The notes beneath the pieces were generated by a model, which saw only the letters and a program-made list of their open reading frames with translations, did no database searches and was not told the origin of the DNA. Of a stretch of DNA of 29,175 nt, positions 16,340 to 25,044 are shown in pieces. The position numbers and the translations under genes were made by a program. How positions within the stretch are numbered: position 1 is the stretch's first letter; each line of letters begins with the position of its first letter. Source of the stretch: a virus; the IMG/VR virus record IMGVR_UViG_3300049489_000361, positions 1 through 29,175 of that record; one strand, written 5' to 3'.

Positions 16340-18562
16340 TTAGACGCCGACGTAGTAGGTCTCGGCGGCGGCGAGGGTGTCACGCTGCGCCAGGCCCCAG
16401 CGGGTCAGGGCAACGATGCTCCAGCTGTCGCTTTCGGGGCGGCGGGTGACTTCCATCGTCATGCGGCGCTTGTAGCCCAACTTCCATTGGTCGAAGCGCA
16501 CGGCCAGGATCGCGCCGTACAGGTTATTCCCGGCGGTGTCCTGGTCGACCTTGCCAGCGGTGTTCGCCTTGCGCGAGGTGCTGTTTTTGTGCATGAACCA
16601 GGACGGCACGACTTCCACGCCGTAGGCGTATTTGACGGCCCCATCCTGCACGCGCAGAACGGTCTGATTGGCGTCTTTGGCCTCGGGCAACTGCATAGCC
16701 GCGAACCAGGTGTTCGGGTCAACGATGAACGCGCATTGGCGCGGATCTCCAGCGCCGATGCCGTTGGAGCCCAGGAGCTTGAGGGTGGCGATAAAGTCCT
16801 CGACCACGAACCCGCCCGCGGCGCTGCGGCTCTGGGTCGTGGTGGTCACAAGCGGGGACTTGCGGAAGCCGTTCGTGAGCAGGAACAGGCTGGTAGCCGC
16901 GCCCGAGTAAGTCGTGCCGCCAATATCATTGATATTGGAGCTGGTGGCGGTGTCGCCATCGATGACAACATACTCCATCATTTCAGCGCCCGACTTGGCA
17001 AGCTGCATCCGCAACTGCGGGGCAAACCCGATGATGCTGTCCTCGGTCAACTCGCCGGTGTAGTCCACGCGCGCGCCCATTTTCGCCACGGTCAGCTGCT
17101 TGGTGGCGGTCGCCATCTGCGAGACGGTGACGGTGCCAACCGGGATCTTCATGGTGCTGTCATTGGCGGTCGTTTCCGCGACTTTGTACCAGGTGGGATC
17201 GGTGCTTTCAACCGGGAAGTACTCGGACGAATACCCGTCGGGGATAACCACGGTCGGGATGCGTCCAACCACCTGCGCGTTCGCGCGGATGGCTTCCCAG
17301 ATCTGATTGCTGTACGCCGTGCCCACCCAGTCGGAACCGATGAGGGAGCCGGTCGAGTACATGGGGTCAGTCGCGGCTTTGATCGCGGCGTCGGACAGGT
17401 CGCCAAACCCGGCGGCCTTGAGGTTGCCACGGGCATAGCCGTTCTTTTCCTCGCGGGCGGTTTTCAGGGCGATGGCCTTGACCATGCCAACGGGAACCGG
17501 GCGATTAGCGCCGCGCAGAACGTCAGCGGCCAGCGCGGTCTCGGCGGCGTCAAGGCCGTCGTACTTGTCGGTGTCGGCGTACTCGCGCACGAGGGGAGCG
17601 CCGCCCGGCAGGCGGTTGGCTTTGGCGGCGGCGGTCTTCAGTTCCTCATTCTCTTTGCGGAGGGTATCAATCTCCGCGGCCTTCTTGGCCTCGGCATCGG
17701 CGGCGGCTTTCGCGGCGTCGCGTTTGTCCAGCAGTTCAAGCAGTTCTTTCTCGTCCATGTCAATAACTCCTGTAAGGTGTTTGTCTGTATCAGCCGCGCC
17801 GGTTGCTTTGACGCCTGCCGCCGCCTCTGGCTGTGTTACGCTCTTTAGGCTCATGCTCGTGTTGCGCGGTTCTGCCGGGGTGGGGGTGAGACTTGCATCG
17901 ATCCCCAGCGGCCAGGACTTGAGCCATACCGCGCCCTCGCTCTTGCGCACACGCTCCACCAAATGACCGGCGGTGCCGCTTGACCACCCCAGCTTGCCCG
18001 CCTTCGCCATTTCGTAGATCGCTTTTTCATAACGGTCGCGCATGTTCAATTGCGCCTCGACCCATACCCCCACTTCGTCGGCTTTCAACTCGCCAGCGCC
18101 GATAATGCGCTTTCCGATGATCTTGTCCCCGCCGTGGTGGTAGAGGATGGGGGTATTCTTTGCCCCGCCAAAATCAGTCTCAGCCGTGAAAAACTCGCCG
18201 GTGATGTCAGGATCGGCGGCGGTGGAAAATCGCACCAGATACCCGCCTACGCGCCCATCGGGGAGCGCCTTGACCGTGTCACCCATGACCACGATAGAGG
18301 CGGGATCGGCAAGGTATTTCGTTACCATTTCCTCGCGGTCTTCATCGTCCGGCTCCATGGCCATGGTGTGATCGACAATCGCGCGCGCGGCCTTGCGTAC
18401 TTCGCGGATGCGGCCCTTATCCTCTGCGTTATTGCGTGCCCCGATCTTGAGAGCATCTAAAACCGCGCCGCTAACATATCCGCCTTGGGCTGGAATAGTC
18501 GTATTGATAACTACCTTTTGGCTGTCTGCTTTTTGACCAGGGGGGATTACATGTTCCGACAT
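16340..18562 (-). CDS. prohead protease-scaffold-major capsid protein fusion (HK97 type)
   Basis: The ATG at 18562 is chosen because GAGG lies 5 nt upstream; an in-frame GTG at 18568 overlaps that site. The product is 740 aa. Residues about 95-235 form the HK97 prohead protease: GGYLVRFS, ITGEFFTAETDF, a HH pair (H142/H143) and GWSSGTAG (S194/S195) as catalytic His and Ser, then WPLGIDASLTPTPAEPRN. Residues 269-315 are a charged coiled coil (scaffold/delta domain). Residues about 325-740 are the HK97-fold capsid (STGSLIGSDWVG, QLTVAKMGARVDYTGELTEDS, AFIVDPNTWFAAMQ, GAILAVRFDQWKLGYKRR). The protease normally cleaves the delta domain; here both are on one chain. An internal ribosome binding site precedes residue 269. 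Confidence 0.92.
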   Translation of the reverse strand: MSEHVIPPGQKADSQKVVINTTIPAQGGYVSGAVLDALKIGARNNAEDKGRIREVRKAARAIVDHTMAMEPDDEDREEMVTKYLADPASIVVMGDTVKALPDGRVGGYLVRFSTAADPDITGEFFTAETDFGGAKNTPILYHHGGDKIIGKRIIGAGELKADEVGVWVEAQLNMRDRYEKAIYEMAKAGKLGWSSGTAGHLVERVRKSEGAVWLKSWPLGIDASLTPTPAEPRNTSMSLKSVTQPEAAAGVKATGAADTDKHLTGVIDMDEKELLELLDKRDAAKAAADAEAKKAAEIDTLRKENEELKTAAAKANRLPGGAPLVREYADTDKYDGLDAAETALAADVLRGANRPVPVGMVKAIALKTAREEKNGYARGNLKAAGFGDLSDAAIKAATDPMYSTGSLIGSDWVGTAYSNQIWEAIRANAQVVGRIPTVVIPDGYSSEYFPVESTDPTWYKVAETTANDSTMKIPVGTVTVSQMATATKQLTVAKMGARVDYTGELTEDSIIGFAPQLRMQLAKSGAEMMEYVVIDGDTATSSNINDIGGTTYSGAATSLFLLTNGFRKSPLVTTTTQSRSAAGGFVVEDFIATLKLLGSNGIGAGDPRQCAFIVDPNTWFAAMQLPEAKDANQTVLRVQDGAVKYAYGVEVVPSWFMHKNSTSRKANTAGKVDQDTAGNNLYGAILAVRFDQWKLGYKRRMTMEVTRRPESDSWSIVALTRWGLAQRDTLAAAETYYVGV
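17756..17772 (-). promoter_or_regulatory. internal ribosome binding site and start for free scaffold-capsid protein
   Basis: Inside the fusion gene, CAGGAG (17767-17772) stands 8 nt before an in-frame ATG (17756-17758) encoding MDEKELLELLDKRD. This is exactly where a stand-alone HK97-like capsid gene would begin its coiled-coil delta domain. Initiation here would make a protein of about 472 aa without the protease. Confidence 0.65.
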
Positions 18563-18574
18563 ACTCACCTCGAT

Positions 18575-18619
18575 AAACGAAAACGGCGCACTAACCCATG
18601 TTTGGGAATAGTGCGCCGT
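18575..18619 (-). terminator. terminator-like hairpin between the 83-aa gene and the capsid gene
   Basis: A perfect 11-bp stem (ACGGCGCACTA / TAGTGCGCCGT, arms 18583-18593 and 18609-18619), with a further CCCA/TGGG pairing in the apical part, is followed on the minus strand by TTTTCGTTT. The capsid ribosome binding site comes only a few bases later. It would end transcripts entering from the 83-aa gene, or attenuate the late operon. Confidence 0.65.
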
Positions 18620-18710
18620 CTACTGACCTATTGCGCCTCGCCTTACCTGCCTTTTCGCTTCGCCTCGCGGCCCTCGGCTATCCTGCGGGTATGGCTATTC
18701 GGATGTACCC

Positions 18711-18739
18711 ATGATACCACGATTGGAGGGGGATTACAA
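18711..18739 (-). promoter_or_regulatory. candidate promoter upstream of the capsid gene or of a small RNA
   Basis: TTGTAA (18734-18739) and TATCAT (18711-18716) are separated by 17 bp in the gene-free stretch after the 83-aa gene. Predicted transcription starts near 18704, so the terminator-like hairpin would be met after about 100 nt. The stretch 18563-18743 holds no credible ORF. Confidence 0.4.
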
Positions 18740-19001: not shown

Positions 19002-19029
19002 ATTATACCCCGTATGATGGGGATTTCAA
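19002..19029 (-). promoter_or_regulatory. near-consensus sigma70-type promoter for the 83-aa gene
   Basis: TTGAAA (19024-19029) and TATAAT (19002-19007) are separated by 16 bp. The -10 box is a perfect match and the -35 matches five of six positions. It fills the gap after the stop of the upstream gene (19033). Only 6 nt separate the -10 box from the ATG at 18995, so the predicted +1 coincides with the start codon. The spacer holds CCCC...GGGG, a small inverted repeat that might affect regulator binding. Confidence 0.8.
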
Positions 19030-21041: not shown

Positions 21042-21730
21042 TACACACCGAGATCCTCGTACCAGTTGAGCCGGATAACCACCTTATTAGCGGCGGCGCG
21101 GCTTGTCACGCGCAAGGTGTAGACCTGGTTGACAGACAAATCCCACTCGGCCATCCCACGGTCGCCCCCGCCCGCGCGAACGCCGCTTCCTGATAGCCCG
21201 ATCCATAACGTAGTGCCTACGCCGGTCACGGTTGGGTCTTCCCATATTTCCATCGCCGGGGTTGTAAGACTATTGCGGTTTCGGTTGACCGGCGTTCTTT
21301 GTGAGCCGTTCCCACTGTAGGTGGACGCCTCGTAGAAATAGACCTCCGCCTCTGCCGTACTCAATACCTCAAATTCGAGATGCGGCGTCTCGGTGGTCGG
21401 GTCAAGCCCGGCCGGCACGACAAGCCGAATATCCTTGCTCGATCCGCTTGAAAGTGAGGATACCAACACGCTCCAGATGTGGCTCTCTCCCTCATGCACC
21501 TGGTGGTGGTCGAATTGCATCACAACCGGAATATCCGAGATGGGATCGGTCGGCCCGATAGCCACGGTCAGCGCCCTTACCCCCGTATTCGCGCGCGTCT
21601 CGACAAGGGGCAGCCCAGCCGCATCATCCAGCGCGACGTGTTGCACCTCCGCCCCCGCCGTCTGGGTAGTCTTGACGGTGGTGTTTATCGGCGGCGTCGC
21701 GTATTGTTGGTTCTGGTAGGTTACGCCCAT
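21041..21730 (-). CDS. conserved phage structural protein (beta-rich), portal-MuF interval
   Basis: The protein is 229 aa, coupled to the portal stop by TAATG. Features are FDHHQVHEGESHIWSV, HLEFEVLSTAEAEVYFYEAS, NRNRNS, TVTGVGTTLWIGLSGSG, a Gly-rich RAGGGDRG, and the ending VVIRLNWYEDLG. This combination recurs, as far as I recognise, in a widespread family of beta-rich phage proteins of undefined role encoded near head genes. A virion or head-fibre function is likely, but cannot be shown here. Confidence 0.68.
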   Translation of the reverse strand: MGVTYQNQQYATPPINTTVKTTQTAGAEVQHVALDDAAGLPLVETRANTGVRALTVAIGPTDPISDIPVVMQFDHHQVHEGESHIWSVLVSSLSSGSSKDIRLVVPAGLDPTTETPHLEFEVLSTAEAEVYFYEASTYSGNGSQRTPVNRNRNSLTTPAMEIWEDPTVTGVGTTLWIGLSGSGVRAGGGDRGMAEWDLSVNQVYTLRVTSRAAANKVVIRLNWYEDLGV

Positions 21731-23532
21731 TATTCCTCCTTCACCGAGTAGGAGCCGTCGCCGTTATCTACGATACGCTTATTCGCCCGGTTGACAGTCA
21801 CCACGGGCGCGGGCAGATGCACGTCCCCGGCCTTGACGTTGACTACGGGCGCGGCCTGCTCTGGTACATTGACCGTGATACCCTGCGGCGAGACTGTTAC
21901 CCCGCGCTCGGGCACGTTGACGGTCACGGCGATGGGCTGCGGGGTAGGCTCCACGGCCAGCGCCTTGCGCGCCTCGCGGATTTCGGCGGCGAGGGTGAGT
22001 AGCGCGCTGTTGTCTTGCACGGGCGCGGCGGGTTGTGCCGTGAATACCGCATCCACCTCCGCCAGCGTCTTGCACCCTGCCAGCGCGGCGGATACCCGCG
22101 CGTGTTCGATGGGCGGGATAATCTCGCTCTTGAATTCCTTGACCGCCTGCCCGCGTTCGATGCACTTGCGCGCCACTTTGCGCCAGCGTTTCATCTCGGC
22201 AGCCTGTTCCGCGTCCTCGGCCTCATCCTGGTCGGGCTGTTCGCTCTCGACTGGCGCGGCCTCGGATGGTGGCACAACCGGCGCAACGGGCGCAACGGGC
22301 GCGGGCATGGGGGCTGGTTCCGGCTCTGTGCCGTCGCCTGTCTCAGGGGTAATCTGCGCGGGCATCAACTTATCCCGCTTATCGCCCAGCTTGTCATCCC
22401 GCCAATACTTTTTGCGCACTTCCTCAACCGTGTGCGTTTTGGCGTACTCTGCCATTTCCTGCAATTCCAACACGCGGTCTTTGGTGCGAATGTCATCGAA
22501 CGCGCCGGTAAGGTTTTCGCCGTAGAGCGGTAGCAGGTCATTGGTGATCTTCTCAGCGAACGCGTTGAGCATAGGCCAAACGCAGTATTCGGTAAACGTC
22601 GCCTTGCCGGTTTTGGCGTTCGCCTCAGTCGCGTTGGGGAGCATCATATTCAGATACCCCGGCGCTATAATCTGGAAAAGCTCGTCCCGCGTGAAGGCGC
22701 GTTTCTCGATTACCTGCATCTCGCGGTCGCTCAAGGCGTTGGGCAGCCATTGAACCCCGCCAGCACCTACACCGCGCAAAGGCATGTACTTGAGCATCTT
22801 GCGCGCGGCCTCGGCCAGCTCGCGCTTTAGCCGTTCCCACTCGCTGTCATTGATGGACGCGCCAAATGCGAGTATTCCGGGAGGCGCGCCGTTGTTCTCG
22901 GTCTGTACTGCGGCCTGGTTGCGTAAAGCGCCATAGTCCTGTTGCACCTGGTATTTGACGGTTTCATACAGCCCCTCGCCCCGGAAGGGGTTGTTGGGAT
23001 TGAACCGCTTTACGTGTACAATTTCATCGACCGGGATGCTCAACTCTGTCCCGGTGTAGGGGATGTACTGGTAATGCGAGATAAAAAGCCGTTCGTCACA
23101 GATTGGGGTGATCTGCCCCGGCGGGATGATCCACAACTCGGCGGGCTGGTTGCCTACCTTGTTGATCCACCAATAGCAGTTGTGGGACAACTGGTAATAG
23201 CTAAATGACGCGCCCAAGAACTCGGCCCGGCTCATAAGCGGGTTGGGCTTGCGCAGTAGCACCTCGAACGGATGGTTGGGAATGTCGTTCTCTTCCTCGC
23301 CCGCCATGGAGGACACGCTGAACTTGACGCCCGCGCCGTACTCGGCCACGGCATTGACGGCGGAGAAGATCCACCCGATCTTGCGATATAGCGCATCGTT
23401 TTCCAGCAGCTTGGAAGGGTCAATCTCCCACCTGTAATCGTTCGCCATCGTGAGGGGGACGCGCTCGGTAACCGCGCCGGGCTGCATCTTGGCATAACCA
23501 AAACGTACTAGAAAACGGTCAATAATGTTCAT
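21730..23532 (-). CDS. portal protein (HK97 gp3-type) with long C-terminal extension
   Basis: The ATG at 23532 is chosen for its ATGA overlap with the terminase stop. The protein is 600 aa. Residues 1-400 look like an HK97-type portal: IFSAVNAVAEYGAGVKFSV, HPFEVLLRKPNPLMSRAEFL, YWWINKVGNQPAELWIIPPG, EIVHVKRFNPNNPFRGEG and TFTEYCVWPMLNAFAEKI. The portal forms the dodecameric DNA channel. After EEVRKKYW come a Pro/Ala-rich linker (PAPMPAPVAPVAPVVPP), a charged helical domain (EMKRWRKVARKCIERGQAVKEF) and V/P-rich repeats near the end (ITVNVPEQAAPVVNV). These extensions are common in portals but their role is undefined. Confidence 0.9.
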   Translation of the reverse strand: MNIIDRFLVRFGYAKMQPGAVTERVPLTMANDYRWEIDPSKLLENDALYRKIGWIFSAVNAVAEYGAGVKFSVSSMAGEEENDIPNHPFEVLLRKPNPLMSRAEFLGASFSYYQLSHNCYWWINKVGNQPAELWIIPPGQITPICDERLFISHYQYIPYTGTELSIPVDEIVHVKRFNPNNPFRGEGLYETVKYQVQQDYGALRNQAAVQTENNGAPPGILAFGASINDSEWERLKRELAEAARKMLKYMPLRGVGAGGVQWLPNALSDREMQVIEKRAFTRDELFQIIAPGYLNMMLPNATEANAKTGKATFTEYCVWPMLNAFAEKITNDLLPLYGENLTGAFDDIRTKDRVLELQEMAEYAKTHTVEEVRKKYWRDDKLGDKRDKLMPAQITPETGDGTEPEPAPMPAPVAPVAPVVPPSEAAPVESEQPDQDEAEDAEQAAEMKRWRKVARKCIERGQAVKEFKSEIIPPIEHARVSAALAGCKTLAEVDAVFTAQPAAPVQDNSALLTLAAEIREARKALAVEPTPQPIAVTVNVPERGVTVSPQGITVNVPEQAAPVVNVKAGDVHLPAPVVTVNRANKRIVDNGDGSYSVKEE

Positions 23533-24737
23533 AACCCCGCCCTTCCTGTCCTGGTCATTGCCCACCAACACAGCGCCAGGCTCATCACCCGGTCGTCGTG
23601 TTGGCCCTCCGGGGCCGAGAATTGGTTGTGCCCGCTTGCGGTCACGTTGATTTCATAGCTGCGCAACTCATCCGCATAGTCTGCCGGCACGTCAAACCCG
23701 TCATGCTCCAGCGCGCCCGCAAGCGCCTGGATTAGTTCCGGCTTGGTGGTCGCGGTCGTCGAGAACCCCGGCTTCAGGTCATGCCCCCATAGAACCGGGA
23801 TGCCCGCCGCCGCGAGTAGTTCTATGTTTGGCTGTCCTATGCTGTTACGTTCCGGCAGTAGCCCGGCGATTGCCCAGCGTTGGCAATTGTCGATGATCCG
23901 CGCGCGCTGGTAGGTGTAGTCGATCTGGTTGAACCGATCCCAAAACACCACGCGGTTACATTGCCTGCAACCCAGCGTTAGCACGGTGTAATCCTCGGCC
24001 ATGGCAAAATCCAGCCCGCCGTAGATGCTATGCCCCGTGTGTTGGTCGGGGGTGTCGCAGTCGGTGAGGGTGGCGCGTTCGGACACGCGCTGGAAGTAGC
24101 TGCCGTCGGCTACGAACTCGGCATCGATCTCCTGCTGTACAACCCGCGCGGGCAGGCTTTCGCGCATTGCCCTGATTTCTTCGGGTGGTATATGCGGGTT
24201 CGCGTCCGTTGGGAATTTGAACCGCGTCCAGTCGGGATGATCTTCGGCTATTGCCCACAGCTCATAAAAACCGTTTAGCCCTTTGGGGGTTGAGCCAAAA
24301 TCGGCGCAGCCCTTGTAGTCTGCCAGCGTCGGGCGGATAACCATATTCCACGCATCCATAAGCGCCTTGACCATTGCGGCCTCGTTGATTGCAACATAGC
24401 CGTATTTCCTCCCGCGTGCGCTGTCTGGATTGTCGAGGCTCCAGAAGTCGATAACGTTTCCAGTCAATACCTCGACCCGGTGTTCCGTCTCGCTTGCGCG
24501 GGTGATGACCGGGGCGAGAATGTTTTTTAGCGCGCGGTAGTTCTCCTGCATCATGCGGTACGTCGGGGCGAACCACCCCACGGGGTGAGGTTGCTTCAGC
24601 AGCTTCTTTACCGCGCGGCGTTCAAGCAGAACATCCTTGCCCCACCTGCGCCCACAACACAAGACGTTGAAGCGCCGGGCGGAGGCTTCCACCTGGCGCT
24701 GGGCGGTGTGAGGCGTTGGCAGTCTGACGTCAATCAT
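23529..24737 (-). CDS. terL: terminase large subunit
   Basis: The ATG at 24737 is chosen (402 aa, 8-nt overlap with the small subunit, weak GAG upstream). The ATPase domain has a Walker A-like CGRRWGKD (28-35), adenine-binding region FAPTYRMM, Walker B-like VAINEA (115-120, with Asn where many terminases have Asp) and coupling motif GSTPKGLNGFYELW. The C-terminal nuclease domain begins GGLDFAMAEDY (D243) and ends HDDRVMSLALCWWAM (D381/D382), acidic residues that bind metal. It cuts concatemeric DNA and drives it into the prohead through the portal, encoded next. Confidence 0.92.
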   Translation of the reverse strand: MIDVRLPTPHTAQRQVEASARRFNVLCCGRRWGKDVLLERRAVKKLLKQPHPVGWFAPTYRMMQENYRALKNILAPVITRASETEHRVEVLTGNVIDFWSLDNPDSARGRKYGYVAINEAAMVKALMDAWNMVIRPTLADYKGCADFGSTPKGLNGFYELWAIAEDHPDWTRFKFPTDANPHIPPEEIRAMRESLPARVVQQEIDAEFVADGSYFQRVSERATLTDCDTPDQHTGHSIYGGLDFAMAEDYTVLTLGCRQCNRVVFWDRFNQIDYTYQRARIIDNCQRWAIAGLLPERNSIGQPNIELLAAAGIPVLWGHDLKPGFSTTATTKPELIQALAGALEHDGFDVPADYADELRSYEINVTASGHNQFSAPEGQHDDRVMSLALCWWAMTRTGRAGL

Positions 24738-25044
24738 GTTTCTCGGTTTCGTCAATAATGCGGATAGCGTCCCCATCCGGCCCGCTCATCTCCAACTTAT
24801 CCGGCACCTTCCCAAACGCGACTTCCATAAATCTAATCTGTAAACTCTCTTTTTTCGACTGCGCCCATTGCCGCAAGATCGCCTCCGCCACGGTCAGGGC
24901 GTGCCCGTCTTGCGCGGTTACGTTGGTGCGTTCGTGGGCAATTACCTGCGCCAGCGCCCGTAGTTCGTCGAACGTCTTAGGGCGGCCTTTGCGGTTGATG
25001 CGGGCGTCGCCTTTGGAAAACGTGCCTGGTTTTGGCGCGGTCAT
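24730..25044 (-). CDS. terS: terminase small subunit
   Basis: The ATG at 25044 overlaps the methyltransferase stop as ATGA, giving 104 aa; the longer frame to 25143 would lie inside that gene. The N-terminus GTFSKGDARINRKGRPKTFDEL is typical of small DNA-binding phage proteins adjacent to large terminase. A helical region follows (LTVAEAILRQWAQSKKESLQIRFMEVAFGKVPDKLE). It likely recognises phage DNA and recruits the large subunit. The assignment rests mainly on position and size. Confidence 0.75.
   Translation of the reverse strand: MTAPKPGTFSKGDARINRKGRPKTFDELRALAQVIAHERTNVTAQDGHALTVAEAILRQWAQSKKESLQIRFMEVAFGKVPDKLEMSGPDGDAIRIIDETEKHD

Follow-up and report, generated by a model that had tools for sequence, protein, structure and literature searches.

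In phage lambda, the protease gene C carries an in-frame internal start from which a shorter assembly protein, Nu3, is made that shares the C-terminus of the longer chain. In HK97 and T5, the capsid precursor consists of a delta-like helical region followed by the HK97 fold, and the protease is supplied by a separate gene. Relatively few protease copies are found in proheads of this type, with about 60 per 415 capsid proteins in HK97 prohead 1 and about 90 per prohead in D3 (PMC12749128). Single genes that unite these parts are also on record: Gifsy-2 and its relatives cdtI, mEp043, and mEp460 use one gene for the protease, a central scaffold-like region, and the capsid, and small-genome siphoviruses among the actinobacteriophages (clusters EE, AN, AX, FE, CW, and DM, and RRH1) carry 'major capsid and protease fusion' genes of protease-scaffold-capsid composition (PMC7302621), which bears out the remark in an earlier note on the DNA analyzed here that fused protease-capsid genes were already known. 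The actinophage genes are described as fusions, the term 'internal' is absent from that paper (PMC7302621), and our search of the open-access literature found no earlier report of an internal capsid start in such fusions.

Here we analyzed a 29,175-nt stretch of viral DNA (the window; IMG/VR record IMGVR_UViG_3300049489_000361), in which protease, scaffold, and capsid lie in one uninterrupted frame and thus form a fused gene of the Gifsy-2 and actinophage kind. A search for the genome from which the window comes turned up this record alone. Its likeness to each described system is partial. With lambda C/Nu3 it has only the nested design in common, since the nested product there is the scaffold alone, with capsid protein E encoded by a separate gene, whereas in the window the nested product would comprise the scaffold plus the major capsid protein. 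The three-part layout is that of Gifsy-2, but the protease there is of the ClpP type rather than S78; the succession of delta-like helices and HK97 fold is that of the HK97 and T5 precursors, the T5 capsid being the best structural match, but in those phages the protease is not fused; and the actinophage fusions belong to tiny 14-18 kb phages with capsid sequences other than that of the window. On the same strand, the terminase large subunit (24776..23529), the portal (23571..21730), and several unassigned genes lie 5' of the protease-capsid gene. The earlier note had placed the frame at 16340-18562, and its coordinates, its residues, and an ACAGGAG-8 nt-ATG arrangement within it all hold; the strand, which is minus, was missing there. 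The features are as follows.

complement(16340..18562), minus strand: single gene for protease, delta region, and major capsid protein (740 aa), running from the ATG at 18562 to the stop codon at 16342-16340
18572..18620, minus strand: strong hairpin (18620-18582) followed by a T-rich tail, abutting the first Shine-Dalgarno (SD) sequence; enriched before the protease or fused genes of relatives
18565..18571, minus strand: first SD, GAGGTGA, of the full-length frame, serving the ATG at 18562
17891..18277, minus strand: S78-type prohead protease domain, residues 96-224, with H143 and S194/S195; from PF04586, PHROG 80, the model, and invariant residues
17759..17890, minus strand: predicted disordered linker holding the internal initiation signal, residues 225-268, variable among relatives
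17767..17771, minus strand: internal SD, AGGAG, 8 nt 5' of the internal ATG; kept at synonymous sites in relatives
17756..17758, minus strand: internal start codon ATG (M269); an ATG at the same column in 44/46 fused relatives and the top internal start of the gene
17336..17758, minus strand: delta-like helical scaffold region, residues 269-409, with a long helix at 271-314; from the model
16343..17335, minus strand: HK97-fold capsid domain, residues 410-740; from the model, structure matches, and PF05065 in the family

The N-terminal part of the protein matches Pfam PF04586 (Peptidase S78; E 4e-6, 27.4 bits against a cut-off of 21) and, as a second match, the head maturation protease of PHROG 80. 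Pfam and PHROGs place the prohead protease at residues about 72-192, and an AlphaFold2 model of the 740-aa protein, built on 52 sequences, has the domain at 96-224 (pLDDT mostly 75-91, lower in a loop at 143-149). These matches bear out the HK97-type prohead protease proposed in the earlier note, and H142/H143 and S194/S195 sit at the residues it had named; the five fused relatives compared all share H143, S194, S195, and G196. With the family cut-off passed and the His and Ser conserved, the sequence assigns this part to Peptidase S78 as a putative protease. The lambda C-type protease family was considered and rejected for this gene, whose protease matches are confined to Peptidase_S78 and PHROG 80.

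Downstream of the protease, the model features a low-confidence segment at 225-269 (pLDDT < 50), the long helix, further helices on to about residue 397, and the shell domain from 410. The helical region 271-397, which the model places ahead of the shell, is a candidate for an HK97-type delta domain, the N-terminal scaffold of the capsid precursor that the protease removes, and M269 falls at the point where predicted disorder stops and the delta helix begins. Comparison of the modelled shell domain with known structures matched it to the T5 capsid (Z 17.9, 258 residues, 5.0 Å) and to HK97 prohead I (Z 16.0 over 250 residues), with mature HK97 and T5 capsids aligning mostly downstream of about residue 330-430, and so succeeded where a phmmer search of the capsid part against PDB sequences gave nothing useful. 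PF05065 (Phage_capsid) is matched by 22 of the 52 members of the family alignment, the window protein's own capsid match being sub-threshold, and NCBIfam gives sub-threshold matches to the HK97 protease and, from residue 270, to the HK97 major capsid protein (TIGR01554). Together, the model and the family-level PF05065 matches assign a predicted HK97 fold to the capsid part, in agreement with what the earlier note had read from the frame.

The internal initiation signal that the note had reported, CAGGAG 8 bases before an ATG at 17758, is found at 17772-17767, within a junction reading ACAGGAG-TTATTGAC-ATG whose ATG encodes M269. Scored by SD pairing and low RNA structure, M269 is the best internal start of the window gene (2.65, the next best reaching 1.48). 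The window's SD taken alone is only suggestive (synonymous-codon p 0.11), so that strong support for the internal start has to come, and does come, from relatives.

Scans of IMG/VR and GTDB genomes yielded 62 loci from viruses and another 6 from bacterial genomes, several of these genomes being of Anaerolineae (Chloroflexota). Removal of near copies left 60 loci, with 46 non-redundant fused genes that have an alignable junction and a dozen loci with separate protease and capsid genes; Salinibacter phages gave a protease match only, their capsid-like gene being separate. Across the 46 fused genes the flanking linker is variable, and the M269 column holds an ATG in all but two. SD-like letters precede this ATG in nearly all of them, in differing codon phases and through different residues: AGGAG is written across x-Gly-x, AAG GAG as Lys-Glu, and GAG GTG as Glu-Val. 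The window reads ACA GGA GTT ATT GAC ATG, L001 reads CAA GGA GTT TTG GAA ATG, L005 reads AAG GAG AAA AAG ATC ATG, L008 reads GAA GGA GAA ATC AAA ATG, and L009, from another capsid family, reads ATG GAG GTT AAG GCT ATG. Exceptions are L063, with CTG at the M269 column, L066, which is without an SD, and L047 and L056, in which the SD is absent at the internal ATG; several relatives carry only AAGGA. In L047 and L056, whose proteases are among the nearest to the window's, the internal ATG is conserved all the same, and the first start of L047 has a strong SD.

SD-like stretches can arise by chance in linkers rich in Lys, Glu, and Gly, which is addressed by synonymous controls that keep the protein and the codon usage of each gene and score pairing against the 16S tail. 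Mean anti-SD pairing at the conserved Met was -7.47 kcal/mol, against -4.85 (sd 0.35) in the synonymous shuffles (z -7.5, n 42), and against -2.64 at 706 other in-frame Met of the same genes; pairing of -6 was reached at 79% of the conserved Met vs 11% of the others. The earlier note had named lack of AGGAG conservation at synonymous sites as a finding that would refute its reading, and the opposite is seen, the AGGAG being kept far beyond codon constraint: the Gly(-4) codon is GGA in 19/21 genes (expected 2.7, p 3e-16), and the third letter of the preceding codon is A in 18/19 (expected 4.6, p 8e-13). Because the relatives share ancestry these p-values overstate independence, and a subset of 27 genes pairwise less than 55% identical gives the same result (GGA in 12/13, expected 1.8, p 3e-10). 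Around the conserved ATG the RNA is more open than at 95% of the positions of its gene, and synonymous shuffles fold more strongly by 2.0 kcal/mol (p 6e-6); by SD and openness the conserved Met ranks first among about 33 in-frame ATG/GTG codons in 33/43 genes. These comparisons establish long-term selection for an internal translation start within the fused architecture. By its sequence, a conserved internal SD with an in-frame start predicted to give a C-terminal product, the gene is of the nested in-frame design. The functional internal start from which, in the note's proposal, capsid would be made as a product of its own is supported by both the synonymous conservation and the low RNA structure, and we infer that it is used in vivo.

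Separate-gene relatives point in the same direction. Their capsid gene begins with an SD-ATG at the homologous point, and in most of them the protease frame ends between -14 and +4 nt from the capsid ATG (in two, the end was not located). L003 reads ACAGGAGTAAATAACATG, with the stop within the spacer, and in L035, which reads TAGGAGTTATTGAAATG, the stop overlaps the SD and the letters are nearly those of the fused L055 (ATAGGAGTAATTGAAATG). As the separate-gene relatives share those letters as SD, spacer, and start, the peptide G-V-I-E/D-M of the fused proteins is best understood as a translated initiation site. Were this stretch instead conserved as a protein motif, for example as a cleavage site for the protease, with its SD likeness a by-product, one would expect what is seen in the residues themselves, Gly at -4 (21/42) and Met being the most conserved of the linker, and the protease must indeed cut somewhere nearby. 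Such a motif would not, however, account for a codon choice strongly biased to SD letters within it, for relatives that write the SD with different residues and in a different phase, or for its equality with the SD, spacer, and start of relatives such as L035, and we regard it as very unlikely.

The same junctions also bear on the history of the gene, since at this shared element a stop or a frame is almost all that distinguishes separate from fused forms, as would be expected if a recent loss of the protease stop had fused two genes and the old capsid start survived by inertia. The unrooted capsid-core tree requires three changes between the fused and separate states; fused genes with the SD-ATG fill the deep and most other branches, and the separate genes are a minority, largely gathered in a single nested group. 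A relic would moreover have lost its synonymous sites to decay without selection. We therefore consider a historical leftover highly improbable, and the word 'retained' in the earlier note, with its suggestion of a relic, does not fit the distribution on the tree. The two parts of the gene differ in their closest kin: the window protease is nearest to those of L056, L047, L068, and L009 (50-55%; 55% to L056), and the capsid part to those of L011 and L001 (76-78%; 78% to L011), neither of which is among the nearest proteases. Such differing nearest relatives indicate that modules have probably been exchanged in the region of the junction while frame and start stayed intact, giving a gene that looks mosaic and joined at the linker; that the start survived such exchange also speaks for the nested reading.

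Further observations concern the 5' side of the gene. Hairpins of at least -18 kcal/mol in strength precede 25/53 protease or fused genes vs 3/368 other frames, one of the three being the window's own gene, counted there through a labelling error; the stems differ in sequence among relatives, and the arrangement of hairpin, T-rich tail, and SD recurs. The roughly 10 nt between T tail and start leave no room for a promoter, so the capsid mRNA must include or read through the hairpin, which could act either as a terminator-like checkpoint or as a 5' stabilizer. An Rfam search of the window returned no match. Two sigma-70-like promoter matches lie upstream of the hairpin on the minus strand, at 18711-18739 (TTGTAA-17-TATCAT with TG) and at 19002-19029 (TTGAAA-16-TATAAT, 11/12). 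Some relatives carry additional N-terminal parts. The protease-capsid frame of L001 has, fused ahead of it at positions 1812-2420, a domain of the 2'-5' RNA ligase superfamily, a 2H phosphoesterase (PF13563, E 7e-13), for which L012 gives a weaker match; the L001 domain shows a weak, sub-threshold likeness to the anti-CBASS protein Acb1; if the internal capsid start is used, this domain would ride only on fused chains, possibly inside the virion. In L015, L038, and L043, about 400-490 aa of fused frame precede the capsid Met, and this stretch has no Pfam match at E 0.01.

These data support a model where ribosomes starting at 18562 would produce a protease-linker-delta-capsid chain, and those starting at the internal SD-ATG (17767-17771 / 17758) would produce just delta-capsid, which corresponds to an ordinary HK97-type capsid precursor. 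Through their shared delta and capsid domains both chains would co-assemble into one procapsid, the fused chains bringing inside the shell the protease, which would go on to cleave the linker and the delta regions. As the delta region is expected to be removed either way, the N-terminus in the mature virion would be uninformative on which start was used. The earlier note had suggested that little fusion and much free capsid could be made; two products are supported, and the ratio does not follow from the signals, since predicted anti-SD pairing is -9.1 at the first start and -6.9 at the internal one, and SD strength by itself gives no ground for expecting free capsid to prevail. That the fusion is nonetheless presumably the minority product is argued from the few proteases carried by HK97 and D3 proheads, where a pure fusion would force a one-to-one ratio.

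The alternative in which all capsid is made as a protease fusion and freed by self-cleavage, the internal SD-ATG being an accident of the linker, has to be weighed at this point. A rough calculation with inner radii of 18-22 nm has 415 proteases taking up a fraction of about 0.33-0.61 of the internal volume, so that full loading may be feasible and stoichiometry alone is no proof of two products; the single open frame, a protease that could cut its own linker, and the comparable three-part gene of Gifsy-2 would equally suit a polyprotein. It leaves unexplained, however, the synonymous GGA/GGAG conservation, the fixed ATG, and the low RNA structure, as well as the capsid start of separate-gene relatives at the homologous element, and proheads of HK97 and D3 hold only about 60-90 proteases (PMC12749128); we find it improbable. 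A nested in-frame protease/capsid gene that makes both protease-delta-capsid and delta-capsid is, in our assessment, very probably the correct reading.

Fused genes also occur in Rhodobacter, Pseudomonas, Vibrio, and Shewanella phages. In most unrelated fused genes, a blind scan singled out a site at the protease/scaffold junction as the best internal start (among them RcMeacham M214, Y8 M224, GMA5 M265, Rahul M307, RRH1 M274), with a likely junction start in the actinophages RRH1, GMA5, Rahul, BlueFeather, Whytu, Decurro, and Adaia; the junction sites of MinM1 and Vibrio 1.055 were unconvincing in that scan, and the best internal sites of EricDab and SallySpecial lay elsewhere. In Gifsy-2, where sequence analysis covered the capsid gene stretch of the record, the best internal start is M221, at the protease/scaffold junction, and the synonymous SD test is not significant. 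When the unrelated fused phages are compared with synonymous shuffles, the low structure is significant (combined p 1e-5) but the SD is not (combined p 0.5). Nesting might be the general condition of fusion genes in tailed phages, with a junction start that sets the protease-to-shell ratio and that persisted or arose repeatedly in unrelated families (the Chloroflexota-associated phages of the window family, Gifsy-2-like phages, Rhodobacter and Pseudomonas phages, and actinophages), a generalization that we judge about equally likely to hold or to fail.

Fusions and nested starts are each known, and as far as open papers show, a conserved start for a whole delta-capsid inside a protease-capsid gene is new. 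A strict one-to-one fusion is puzzling given the scarcity of protease in HK97-type proheads, and a conserved internal start would resolve the puzzle, in that a small number of fused chains would bring the protease into the shell by co-assembly and free delta-capsid would build it. If the internal start is used, genes annotated as fusions would hide a second capsid product, and a single frame could supply protease and shell in different quantities.
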